Shown here in pieces: positions 3,007 to 7,870 of a stretch of 32,703 nt of DNA (positions are counted from its first letter, which is position 1; every line of letters begins with the position of its first letter). Origin of the DNA: Candidatus Buchananbacteria bacterium (GTDB taxonomy: Bacteria; Patescibacteriota; Patescibacteriia; 2-01-FULL-39-33). Under the pieces are notes generated by a model. That model was not told the DNA's origin. It saw only the letters and a list, made by a program, of their open reading frames with translations, and ran no database searches. The translations under genes were made by a program, and so were the position numbers. The stretch is taken from NCBI GenBank assembly GCA_903907165.1, contig CAIVNC010000015.1, positions 1 through 32,703 of the forward strand. Direction: 5' to 3'.

Positions 3007-3504
3007 ATGGCTCAACCTCACCGCCACGATCGGCTTTCCTGGGACGAATGTTTAATGCAAATGGCTTGGCTTATCGGCCAAAGATCATCAGATCCCAGCA
3101 CTCAGGCCGGCGCCTGCATTGCTAACGAAAAAAATGTCGTCATCGGACTCGGCTATAACGGCTGGCCTCGCGGCATCGACAATGACGCCTTACCGTGGGA
3201 ACGAGAGGGCGATTTTTTGACCACCAAATATGCCTACGTCGTCCATGGCGAAGAAAACGCCATCTACAATGCCAGCACCGATGTTGCCGGTTGCAAACTT
3301 TATTGCACGCTTTATCCTTGCAATGAATGCGCCAAAACCATTATCCAATCTGGTATTAATGAAGTTATTTACATGAGCGACAAATATCACGATCATCAAA
3401 GTTGGGTCGCTTCTCGCAAATTATTTGAACTAGCCGGAATTAAGACCAGGCAATACATTCCTCAATTCAAAATCAATTTGGAAAATAACGACGGACAAAT
3501 CTAA
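3007..3504 (+). CDS. dCMP deaminase (ComEB-like)
   Basis: RLSWDECLMQMAWLIGQRSSDPSTQAGACI; zinc motif HGEENAIYNA...PCNECAKTIIQSGI. Confidence 0.9.
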   Translation: MAQPHRHDRLSWDECLMQMAWLIGQRSSDPSTQAGACIANEKNVVIGLGYNGWPRGIDNDALPWEREGDFLTTKYAYVVHGEENAIYNASTDVAGCKLYCTLYPCNECAKTIIQSGINEVIYMSDKYHDHQSWVASRKLFELAGIKTRQYIPQFKINLENNDGQI

Positions 3505-3519
3505 TCAATAAATTGAACT

Positions 3520-4074
3520 ATGGACAGAATTATCATCGGACTTGTCGGCGAACTTGCCAGTGGCAAAGATACAGTAGCTGATCATCTCAAAGAAAAATAC
3601 GGTTCCGAAACTATCAGTTTTTCCAAATCATTGCGCGACATTCTCGATCGCCTCTTCCTGCCTCAAACTCGCCAAAACATGGCCAATCTCGGTATTGATT
3701 TGCGCGCCAGATTTGGTCAAGATCTTCTGGCCAAAGTTATCGCCGAAGAAATCAAAGCCAGTGACAAAAAAATGGCTTGCCTGCCAAACGTCAGACTAGA
3801 AAGCGACATCGTTTATCTCAAAGAAATTCCTGGATTTTTCTTGGTTTCCGTCAATACCGAAGCTCAAACTCGCTACAATCGCTTGATCGGTCGCAACCAG
3901 AATCCTGATGATAAAACTAAAACTTGGGAAGAATTTTTGGCTGACTCAGAGTTATCCACAGAGATTCAAATCCGTGATTTAATACCAACTTGCAAATACC
4001 ACTTGGACAACAATGGAAATTTTGAAAGCCTATATAAGCAAATCGACGAAATGATCGTTAAAATTAGAAATTAG
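3520..4074 (+). CDS. P-loop nucleoside/nucleotide kinase-like protein (dephospho-CoA kinase/dNMP kinase-like)
   Basis: Walker A GELASGKDT near N-terminus; small NMP-kinase-like fold. Confidence 0.65.
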   Translation: MDRIIIGLVGELASGKDTVADHLKEKYGSETISFSKSLRDILDRLFLPQTRQNMANLGIDLRARFGQDLLAKVIAEEIKASDKKMACLPNVRLESDIVYLKEIPGFFLVSVNTEAQTRYNRLIGRNQNPDDKTKTWEEFLADSELSTEIQIRDLIPTCKYHLDNNGNFESLYKQIDEMIVKIRN

Positions 4075-4087
4075 AAATTATTCTATT

Positions 4088-4702
4088 ATGTTTAAAAATA
4101 AATACAAAGGCAAATTCATTGCCGTGGAAGGCTTAAGCGGTTCTGGCGCTTCGGATCAGGCTATGGAAATTGCCAGCTACCTCAAGAAAGACAAAAAGTC
4201 TATCTGGTTCACTAGCGAACCGACCAACAATCTTGTCGGCGCCATGATCAAAAGCTGTTTGCTCGGCGATTGGAAGATGGACAGTCCGGCCGGCTTGCAA
4301 CTACTTTTTGCTGCCGATCGTGCTCATCATTTGGAAAAAGAAATTATTCCTCGCCTCAAAGAAGGAATCAACGTTATTACCGACCGCTATTTATTATCCT
4401 CAATCGCTTATGGTTCAATCGAAATCGGCGACACCGACTGGCTTTCCCGCATCAATGATCAATTCCTTTTGCCAGATTTAACTATTCTAATCAAGACTTC
4501 AGCTAAGAACTGTATAAAGAGAATGAAGGAAAATCAGAAGGCTTTCAGCCTGTTTTCCAGCGAAGAAAAGCTACAAAAAGTCTGGCAGGCCTACGAGATG
4601 ATTCAGAAAAAATATCCTAACATCAAAATTTTTGACGGCGATAAAGAAGAATTTCAATTCTTCGACGAAATCAAGAGAGAGATAGACAAATTATTAAAAT
4701 AA
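4088..4702 (+). CDS. tmk: thymidylate kinase homologue with atypical Walker A (GLSGSGAS)
   Basis: KFIAVEGLSGSGASDQAMEIASYLK...TSEPTNN...DRYLLSSIAYGS; Tmk architecture, but the P-loop Lys position is Ala. Confidence 0.8.
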   Translation: MFKNKYKGKFIAVEGLSGSGASDQAMEIASYLKKDKKSIWFTSEPTNNLVGAMIKSCLLGDWKMDSPAGLQLLFAADRAHHLEKEIIPRLKEGINVITDRYLLSSIAYGSIEIGDTDWLSRINDQFLLPDLTILIKTSAKNCIKRMKENQKAFSLFSSEEKLQKVWQAYEMIQKKYPNIKIFDGDKEEFQFFDEIKREIDKLLK

Positions 4703-4716
4703 ACTAAATAGATAAA

Positions 4717-5574
4717 ATGGAAGGTTATCTATCTAAAAAAATAACTGCTTTTTTGTTTGTGCTTTTTTTGGTTTGGCCAATCTCGGCAATTCACGCTTCA
4801 AATCTATCTCCTCAAGATGACCCTAGCTCGACAGTAGATTCAGATAGCGACGGTCTGACTGACTACCAAGAAGTTCATATTTATCACACTGATCCGCAAA
4901 AGGCTGACACTGACGGTGATGGTTTTACTGATGGCGCGGAAGTTAAAAACGGTTATTCTCCCCTAGTGCCAAATTTAAAAATAAACCAAGTTGATACCGA
5001 CCATGATGGATTAAATGATGATTTAGAAATCAAATTAGGTACGGATCTGACCAATCCTGACACTGATGGCGATGGCCACAATGATGGCCAGGAAGTTAGC
5101 TATGGCTATAATCCATTAAGGGGCAACGATGATCATTCCATGCCTCGCCGAGTTGAAGTTGACCAGACCAAACAGCAGATGTATTATTTTTTGAACAACG
5201 TTCAAATTGGTACCATCCCCGTCTCGACTGGCCTACCAAAAACTCCCACACCAAATGGCACCTATAAAATAATAACTAAGAAACTCTACGTCGATTATTT
5301 TGGCGTTAACTATAGTTACCCCAATACTAAATGGAATTTGCTGTTTAACCAAGGTCAACTGGGCTATTACCTTCACGGCGCTTTTTGGCATAATGAGTTT
5401 GGCATCGAACCGATGAGTCATGGTTGCGTCAATATTGCCTATAACAACGCCGAAAAAATCTACAATTTCCTCGACGTCGGCGATAGCGTCAAAGTTTACG
5501 GCAAATGGACCGGTAAATGGAAAACTCCAACTAAAGTCAAAGCTGCCGTTCTCGGAGCTAAAATAAAAAAATAA
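4717..5574 (+). CDS. secreted L,D-transpeptidase (YkuD) with N-terminal thrombospondin type 3/EF-like Ca-binding repeats
   Basis: Signal-like hydrophobic N-terminus; several DxDxDGxxDxxE repeats; C-terminal HGAFWHNEFGIEPMSHGCVNI catalytic motif. Confidence 0.9.
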   Translation: MEGYLSKKITAFLFVLFLVWPISAIHASNLSPQDDPSSTVDSDSDGLTDYQEVHIYHTDPQKADTDGDGFTDGAEVKNGYSPLVPNLKINQVDTDHDGLNDDLEIKLGTDLTNPDTDGDGHNDGQEVSYGYNPLRGNDDHSMPRRVEVDQTKQQMYYFLNNVQIGTIPVSTGLPKTPTPNGTYKIITKKLYVDYFGVNYSYPNTKWNLLFNQGQLGYYLHGAFWHNEFGIEPMSHGCVNIAYNNAEKIYNFLDVGDSVKVYGKWTGKWKTPTKVKAAVLGAKIKK

Positions 5575-5705: not shown

Positions 5706-5734
5706 TTGACTTGTCCGGGGCCTTAACTTAAAAT
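5706..5734 (+). promoter_or_regulatory. promoter for tmk-thyX (TTGACT, 17-nt spacer, TAAAAT), overlapped by GGGGC...GCCCC inverted repeat
   Basis: Read directly. Confidence 0.5.
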
Positions 5735-5773: not shown

Positions 5774-7474
5774 ATGAAATTAGGCAAATTCATCGTTATT
5801 GACGGTACAGACGGTTCTGGCAAAGGTACCCAAACCACCATATTGGCTCAAAAATTGGCTCTGGGGGGATTTGCGGTTGAGACCGCCGATTTTCCCAGGT
5901 ACGGCCAAGAAAGCGCTATAATGGTCGAATCTTACCTTGCAGGGGCATTAGGAACGGCCCAAGAAGTTGGCCCTTATGCTGCCTCCAATTTATACGCTGT
6001 TGACCGTTGGGCCGCCAGTCGGGAAATGAAGAATCAACTAGCTTGTGGCAAGGTGATTATTTCCAATCGTTGGGTCTCAAGCAATGCCGGTCATCAAGCT
6101 GGCAAGATCAGCGACCCGGCAAAGCGAGAAGAATTTTTGAACTGGCTATTCGACTTGGAATATAAAAAATTAGAGCTACCCCAACCAGATTTGAACATTT
6201 TATTATACGTTCCACCAGAAGTCGGTCAAGAACTGAAATCTCGACAGAAAGATCAAAATGGCCAAGTGATGGACATACACGAAGCTGACATTAGTCATTT
6301 GAAATCTGCCTCTCAAGCTTATCTCGAAGTTGCCAAGAAAATGGGCTGGACGATTATCGACTGCGCACCAGAAGGCCAGATGAAAAGCATCGAAGAAATT
6401 AGTGAATTAATTTGGCAAGAAGTTTTACCAATAATCCAGCAAGGAGACAAAAAAATGAGCATTACCCCCGTTAGTCAAAAAGTTGAAGTCTTGGGTCACA
6501 CCCAAGGACAGGCTCATCCGGAATTTCCGGAACTGATTGAACGCGCCGGACGCACTTGCTACCAATCATGGGAAAAAGCTGCTCCAGGCACGGCTGAAAA
6601 GTTCGTTGATATGGTCATCCGTAGCGGACACGAAAGCGTCATTGAACACTCTTGGTTTGTTTTCCTGATCAAAAATATCAATGACGGCATCACGACCACG
6701 GCCAAAGGCATTGTTTTTGATTTGCTTTTGACCAACAACCTCTTTTCGGTCAGTTGTCGAGCCAATGGAGATTACCTGGTCAGCGGAAATGCTCGCATGT
6801 GGCGAAATTATTTCAAAAAGGCCAATGAGAATACCGTCTTTAAAAACATCTTCCTGGCTCAAATAAAGCAAGTGACTCCGATCCTCTTCAAAGATTTTGA
6901 AATGCCGCCCGATAATTTTATCAACGACCGGCAAATCATCATCAATCCGGAAATCAATTGGACCACGGAAGAAAAGTTGAATCACTGGTGGACTATCATT
7001 CGTTTTAGCGGTTACACTCGCGCCTTCACTCATCAGCTGGTTCGCCATCGTCCTGTCGCTATCTCCCAAGAATCGCAAAGATATTGCGATGAAGCCGGAT
7101 TTTATTCCAATGGCTATTTTGTCATTCCACCATCAATCGTCGAAGCTGGCAAAACCGAAGAGTATTTGACCATGCTTAAACAGATTGATGACAACTACAA
7201 AGCGCTTCAAACTCTGACCAACGCTGAGGGCAAAAGATTGATCCGCAATGAAGACGCGCGATTTCTCCTGCCCAACGCTTGTTGCAGTGAGATCGTAATG
7301 TCAGCCAATCTCAAGGAGTGGCACTGGATTCTCAAGATGCGCTGTGACAAACACGCTCAATGGGAAATCCGCCAAGCTGCCATGTCAGCCCTGCGACAAT
7401 TTCAAAATCTGTTCCCTGGTTGCTTTGACGATTTTGTCATTGCCGATGATGGCCTTTCCGCCGAACTGAAGTAA
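5774..7474 (+). CDS. fusion protein: thymidylate kinase (aa 1-~227) + flavin-dependent thymidylate synthase ThyX (aa ~228-566)
   Basis: N-part KFIVIDGTDGSGKGTQ...DFPRYG...NRWVSSNAGHQAGKI; C-part ThyX with RAGRTCYQSWEK, SGHESVIEH, HQLVRHRPVAISQESQRY (RHRx7S motif). One continuous ORF without stop at the junction. Confidence 0.92.
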   Translation: MKLGKFIVIDGTDGSGKGTQTTILAQKLALGGFAVETADFPRYGQESAIMVESYLAGALGTAQEVGPYAASNLYAVDRWAASREMKNQLACGKVIISNRWVSSNAGHQAGKISDPAKREEFLNWLFDLEYKKLELPQPDLNILLYVPPEVGQELKSRQKDQNGQVMDIHEADISHLKSASQAYLEVAKKMGWTIIDCAPEGQMKSIEEISELIWQEVLPIIQQGDKKMSITPVSQKVEVLGHTQGQAHPEFPELIERAGRTCYQSWEKAAPGTAEKFVDMVIRSGHESVIEHSWFVFLIKNINDGITTTAKGIVFDLLLTNNLFSVSCRANGDYLVSGNARMWRNYFKKANENTVFKNIFLAQIKQVTPILFKDFEMPPDNFINDRQIIINPEINWTTEEKLNHWWTIIRFSGYTRAFTHQLVRHRPVAISQESQRYCDEAGFYSNGYFVIPPSIVEAGKTEEYLTMLKQIDDNYKALQTLTNAEGKRLIRNEDARFLLPNACCSEIVMSANLKEWHWILKMRCDKHAQWEIRQAAMSALRQFQNLFPGCFDDFVIADDGLSAELK

Positions 7475-7497: not shown

Positions 7498-7537
7498 AAC
7501 CCCGCCAATCAGTTTTTGGCGGGGTTTTTCTTTTTTT
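7498..7537 (+). terminator. intrinsic terminator after tmk-thyX
   Basis: AACCCCGCCA-atcagttt-TTGGCGGGGTT + T-run. Confidence 0.9.
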
Positions 7538-7566: not shown

Positions 7567-7595
7567 TTGACAAGATTATAAATATATCCTATAAT
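7567..7595 (+). promoter_or_regulatory. perfect consensus sigma70 promoter (TTGACA-17 nt-TATAAT)
   Basis: Exact consensus hexamers with optimal spacing. Confidence 0.8.
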
Positions 7596-7654: not shown

Positions 7655-7870
7655 ATGAAAATCGGAAGTTCTTTGTGGGCATGCATCACTTGGCGAAATC
7701 TTTTTTGCCTCGCCATCTATCTGGTCATCTTTTTTTACCTGAGCCTTTTCTATCGTGACACATCCCTGCACGTAGTAGCCATTATTATGCTTTCAGCCAT
7801 TCCCAGTGCTTTTTTCTGGTTTGCCTCGGAAGCATACTTAATGGCCAAAGCCATTTCAAAGGAAAACTGA
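7655..7870 (+). CDS. small membrane protein (71 aa, two predicted TM segments)
   Basis: GAAAGGAG ribosome-binding site 5' of ATG; hydrophobic segments FCLAIYLVIFFYLSLFY and VVAIIMLSAIPSAFFWFA. Confidence 0.65.
   Translation: MKIGSSLWACITWRNLFCLAIYLVIFFYLSLFYRDTSLHVVAIIMLSAIPSAFFWFASEAYLMAKAISKEN

Follow-up and report, generated by a model that had tools for sequence, protein, structure and literature searches.

The window, a 32,703-nucleotide stretch of contig CAIVNC010000015.1 from a Candidatus Buchananbacteria bacterium, contains an open reading frame (ORF) in which a thymidylate kinase (Tmk)-family domain is joined to a flavin-dependent thymidylate synthase (ThyX) domain (Table 1). The fused ORF is preceded, in this order, by genes for a deaminase, a small P-loop kinase, a second Tmk homologue (Tmk1) and a TSP3-repeat protein with an L,D-transpeptidase (YkuD) domain. 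The last of these genes (4717-5574) separates tmk1 from the fusion; in the nearest relative, genome G006, tmk1 and tmk2 are adjacent. The deaminase and small kinase genes (3007-4074) match the C- and N-terminal parts, respectively, of NF041025 (anti-phage dCTP deaminase), far under its cut-off. A perfect sigma-70 consensus (TTGACA-17-TATAAT, 7567-7595) is located 3' of the fusion gene and 5' of a small ORF at 7655.

Table 1. Features of the fused ORF and its surroundings (positions in the window)
Feature	Position	Strand	Basis or remark
Deoxycytidylate-deaminase-type gene, same neighbourhood	3007..3504	+	PF00383
Small P-loop kinase-like gene	3520..4074	+	Common beside Tmk2 in Patescibacteria
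Tmk1, second Tmk homologue	4088..4702	+	P-loop lysine replaced (EGLSGSGAS)
Promoter-like site, TTGACT-17-TAAAAT	5706..5734	+	Weak evidence; site count near shuffle expectation
Fused ORF, Tmk-family kinase and ThyX, 566 aa	5774..7474	+	Single frame, ATG start, internal stops absent; domain profiles
Tmk-type kinase domain, residues 1-221, divergent clade termed Tmk2 here	5774..6436	+	PF02223; kin; PDB matches
P-loop GTDGSGKGT, residues 11-19, lysine retained	5804..5830	+	Sequence; conserved positions
Junction/linker, residues 222-235 (QQGDKKMSITPVSQ)	6437..6478	+	Sequence; low pLDDT at 225-228
AAGGAG Shine-Dalgarno-like site, 8 nt 5' of internal ATG	6441..6446	+	
Internal in-frame ATG (Met228)	6455..6457	+	Matches free thyX start codon of G006
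ThyX domain, 339 aa	6455..7474	+	PF02511; TIGR02170; PDB 3gwc/2af6
Insertion of ~108 aa within ThyX	6680..7003	+	Also in G006
RHRx7S motif (RHRPVAISQES), complete	7043..7075	+	Sequence; alignment with M. tuberculosis ThyX
Terminator-like hairpin, 11 bp, with T-run, 3' of fused ORF	7498..7526	+	

The original prediction placed a kinase and ThyX in one 566-aa ORF, and this was confirmed: the frame is single, every motif quoted for it is present, and both halves score above the Pfam gathering cut-offs. PF02223 covers residues 9-199 (58.4 bits; cut-off, 27), and PF02511 matches the C-terminal half in two stretches, the best of which spans residues 408-548 (166 bits; cut-off, 24.8). AlphaFold2, run with an alignment, modeled two confident domains (mean pLDDT 87) with a low-confidence stretch between them, and pLDDT falls below 50 at junction residues 225-228. 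In a Foldseek search against the PDB, the thymidylate kinase (4unp, 1g3u) and the ThyX (3gwc, 2af6) of Mycobacterium tuberculosis were among the best matches and are the nearest solved structures of the two domains; each of the matches listed covers one domain or the other. In M. tuberculosis, unlike in the window, the two are separate proteins and ThyX lacks the insertion.

The ThyX half also exceeds the cut-off of the NCBIfam model TIGR02170 (131-134 bits versus 87.9), and the ThyX motif quoted earlier, RHRPVAISQESQR, lies within it. Aligned with M. tuberculosis ThyX (3gwc), it shows RHRPVAISQES, GHESVIEH, RFLLP and KMRCDKHAQWEIR, and the two proteins share the RHRx7S motif, the GHxSVxEH region, the R-x-x-LP segment and the R...HAxxEIR region. 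The window ThyX is a single Thy1 domain with an insertion and not of the tandem type described below; it is 47% identical to the ThyX of G006, which carries the insertion as well. Phages also have ThyX proteins of similar length. The insertion contains LVSGNARMWRNYF, similar to the TGNxRAWRHF segment found further along in ordinary ThyX. The genome (755 kb, 86% complete, a single draft assembly of 57 contigs) has one ThyX ORF, the fused one, and no match to ThyA was found in it at that completeness. The fused ORF would thus be expected to serve as the thymidylate synthase.

The kinase half retains the motifs GTDGSGKGTQ, DFPRYG and NRWVSSNAGHQ, but the "canonical" dTMP kinase first proposed is too strong a description. 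Its best NCBIfam models are all dTMP kinases, and all score under their equivalog cut-offs (NF005923, 122.9 versus 193; TIGR00041, 61.2 versus 83.25), so that dTMP as the substrate is something we infer. The domain belongs to the divergent Tmk2 clade and sits on a long branch (0.8 changes per column); its nearest kin, G006 and the Tmk of family f9, are 54-61% identical to it. The DR(Y/H) motif reads NRW, with the Asn for Asp that is the norm in this clade (86%). Of the columns at least 85% conserved among about 100 kinase relatives, the window lacks just one, at a gap of a single residue (Y164), and the P-loop, FPRY, DR, NR, GHQ and DIHE residues are in place. The genome has two Tmk homologues, both of them in the window. 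At the position of the P-loop lysine, homologues of Tmk1 have Thr in G006 (GLDGSGTT) and Asn in G097 (GQDGSGNS); a lysine-free thymidylate-kinase subfamily adjoins Tmk2.

The junction reads ATC CAG CAA GGA GAC AAA AAA ATG, where a single C/T transition would turn CAG (Q222) into TAG or CAA (Q223) into TAA. Of the 179 internal ATGs that lie in frame within genes of the window, only ATG6455 is preceded by a 6-base Shine-Dalgarno match, AAGGAG. An equally strong site precedes 2 of the 32 gene starts in the window and 20 of the 32 genes lack a match of even 3 bases, which makes the internal one stand out. RNA structure prediction at the junction gave nothing beyond chance, and the Shine-Dalgarno site is not hidden in structure. 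Among the family members, both genes were found in G006 alone, and its order (deaminase, kinase-like gene, tmk1, tmk2, thyX) and neighbourhood (loci L002 and L061) are those of the window, with Tmk 54-56% identical; however, tmk2 and thyX are separate adjacent genes there, with a stop codon and 7 nt between them. This stop-to-start gap corresponds to in-frame sequence in the window. A stop codon at the junction in close relatives had been listed among the findings that would speak against a fusion. Indeed, G006 has one, and its presence between the genes argues for a fusion that is recent rather than false. Judged from these sequences, the fusion looks young, a recent in-frame joining of adjacent tmk and thyX genes, and in the simplest history the tmk stop was lost and the thyX initiation site was left behind. 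As this site and ATG6455 are retained, free ThyX may still be made, alongside the fusion protein.

No second genome with the exact fusion was found in the genome and viral contigs searched; likewise, no phage record matched at least 80% of the fused-ORF query, and the plasmid search returned no close relative. A two-piece match in MT837662.1, an unannotated fecal "phage" contig, proved to be separate adjacent thyX and tmk genes in reversed order, and a 691-aa frame in genome G612 was rejected because its Tmk is encoded by a gene of its own (234 aa). On wider comparison, the architecture did not prove to be unique. PF02223 and PF02511 do occur in one protein elsewhere, as Tmk-ThyX-ThyX proteins that are standard in Saccharibacteria (e.g., JAGQNK010000022.1 and CP023991.1), another class of the window's phylum, Patescibacteria. 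Relatives of the Saccharibacteria genome G510 (same contig as JAGQNK010000022.1) carry, in many families, a 750- to 830-aa frame with two Thy1 domains behind Tmk. When named genomes were scanned, the best 80 loci were nearly all from Candidatus Saccharibacteria or Saccharimonadia, and 78 of these 80 have one frame with an N-terminal part of at least 200 aa and a tandem ThyX. The N-terminal domain is a Tmk of the window's kind in 44 of the 78 frames and a different Tmk type in the others; Pfam confirmed the domains on examples of both types. Three Saccharibacteria loci (L199, L230 and L233) join a different, canonical-like Tmk to the same tandem ThyX, either through a further fusion event or by swapping of the domain. 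At L135 (1477-3816), from a genome related to G510, the Tmk-ThyX-ThyX frame is split into 342 and 433 aa, which is either real or an assembly error.

These widespread proteins share with the window an N-terminal Tmk and a C-terminal ThyX in one frame. However, they are longer (~780 aa), have two kinds of Tmk domain and carry tandem Thy1 domains, which places the window fusion outside their family. In L159, L199, L233 and other Saccharibacteria, one half of the tandem ThyX has RHR but lacks the Ser, whereas the other carries EQSTRY and no RHR. From the sequences, the tandem protein is possibly a pseudo-heterodimer, and as its motif is split across halves, its synthase activity is less certain than that of the window protein. 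A strong internal Shine-Dalgarno site (at least 5 matching bases) was present in 10 of the 78 Saccharibacteria fusions. Grouping of the window kinase with these fusions was rejected in a careful tree of 45 rows (approximately unbiased [AU] test, p=0.0001); in a quick tree of 106 rows the same grouping had an AU p of 0.55, and because this second tree is undecided, weight also falls on the evidence from ThyX. A common origin was rejected on the 45-row tree together with the differing ThyX partners, and sequence comparison thus indicates that the window fusion and the Saccharibacteria fusions are of separate origin.

We consider a bifunctional dUMP-to-dTDP enzyme the best reading of the fused ORF, with a probability of roughly 60%, as the ThyX motif is complete and the conserved Tmk residues are retained. 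The part of the original prediction that assigned it two consecutive steps stands to that extent. The C-terminal domain would methylate dUMP to dTMP with FAD, NADPH and methylene-tetrahydrofolate, and the tethered N-terminal kinase would phosphorylate dTMP to dTDP with ATP, so that two consecutive steps towards dTTP would be co-localized at a fixed 1:1 ratio. The gene would have arisen when adjacent tmk and thyX of a dTTP-synthesis cluster were joined in frame by loss of the tmk stop, and since the original initiation signals of thyX (ribosome-binding site and start codon) persist inside it, some free ThyX is probably made too. We infer both activities, the substrate of the kinase and the production of free ThyX; substrate channelling, proposed in the original prediction, is a hypothesis suggested by the tether.

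The same internal initiation site could instead mean that the two proteins are mostly made separately, with ATG6455 driving ThyX and the fused product minor. This is rather unlikely, although the site is unmatched among the internal ATGs, is accessible and coincides with the thyX start in G006. In the absence of a stop between the domains every ribosome initiating at 5774 would yield the fusion, most genes in the window lack a Shine-Dalgarno sequence, such that the internal one may be a relic, and the Saccharibacteria fusions stay in frame mostly without a strong internal site. A sequencing or assembly error appears improbable. Under this explanation, tmk in the true genome ends in a stop, e.g., at codon 222 or 223, and tmk and thyX are a pair of ordinary genes; one wrong consensus base could have created the fusion in this single draft assembly, the genes are separate in the nearest relative, and the exact fusion was found in this genome alone. 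However, the wrong base would be required at the exact place in an otherwise intact 566-aa frame, the stop-to-start gap of G006 is itself in frame in the window, and the same pair is fused in other, independent assemblies. It is very improbable that one domain is a non-catalytic scaffold or regulator, or that the kinase has drifted to another deoxynucleotide substrate. The equivalog scores, the Asn in the DR motif and the long branch would fit such drift, but the kinase keeps its catalytic motifs and the genome's only other Tmk, Tmk1, lacks the P-loop lysine.

The Tmk-ThyX architecture is not unique, yet it appears to be undescribed. The original prediction had allowed that the fusion might be already widespread and characterized: it is widespread elsewhere, and no paper describing Tmk-ThyX, or any synthase-kinase pair, was found in a search of the literature outside preprints and most subscription journals. 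Bifunctional thymidylate enzymes such as dihydrofolate reductase-thymidylate synthase (DHFR-TS) are the textbook cases of channelling. The database matches included a 384-aa "dTMP kinase" of white spot syndrome virus, a thymidine kinase-thymidylate kinase fusion. Like the window protein it joins Tmk to a dTMP-producing enzyme, but the partner is a thymidine kinase (salvage) and not a thymidylate synthase. The DHFR-TS of protists and plants is likewise a bifunctional enzyme of the thymidylate cycle, which differs in pairing folate recycling with a ThyA-type synthase and in having no kinase (PMC4866688, PMC5464667). In baculoviruses, a Tmk-dUTPase fusion (pelu112) has been tested for effects on replication, and such fusions were repeatedly acquired (PMC4895240). 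They too combine Tmk with an enzyme of the dTMP route, but the partner is dUTPase and the host an insect virus.

Within Patescibacteria, the Tmk2-clade kinase is joined to a range of other partners. It is fused to dUTPase (on the N side in family f26 and the C side in f49), to ThyA (G175; in its near relatives, thyA and tmk lie side by side as separate genes), to thymidine kinase (G141) and to a nucleoside-deoxyribosyltransferase-type domain (G528, G409 and probably G387). These partners are enzymes leading to dTMP, which, like the ThyX fusions conserved in many Saccharibacteria families, supports dTMP as the substrate of the kinase and the metabolite shared with its partners. Furthermore, two genomes (G094 and G178) have a canonical Tmk joined to thymidine kinase. 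The sequences suggest that recurrent joining is favored, and flux, stoichiometry, gene overlap or mere deletion bias in compact operons might each account for it. That this one kinase has been combined independently with many enzymes of the dTMP route in reduced genomes points to selection for tethering this step. More tentatively, Patescibacteria might repeatedly tether this divergent kinase to any enzyme that feeds it dTMP (ThyX, tandem ThyX, ThyA, dUTPase, thymidine kinase or deoxyribosyltransferase), forming convergent one-protein dTTP "metabolons" with direct hand-over of dTMP, of which the window fusion would have been caught at birth with its old ribosome-binding site in place.

Separate, newly fused and long-fused genes form a natural series that could show whether fusion alters flux, stability or only expression. 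Humans have no ThyX, and in bacteria the enzyme is a drug target, which makes its fused form of practical interest. ThyX is also fused to a deaminase (genome G160); a deaminase domain (PF00383) and Thy1 share one 634-aa frame at locus L078 (738-2639).
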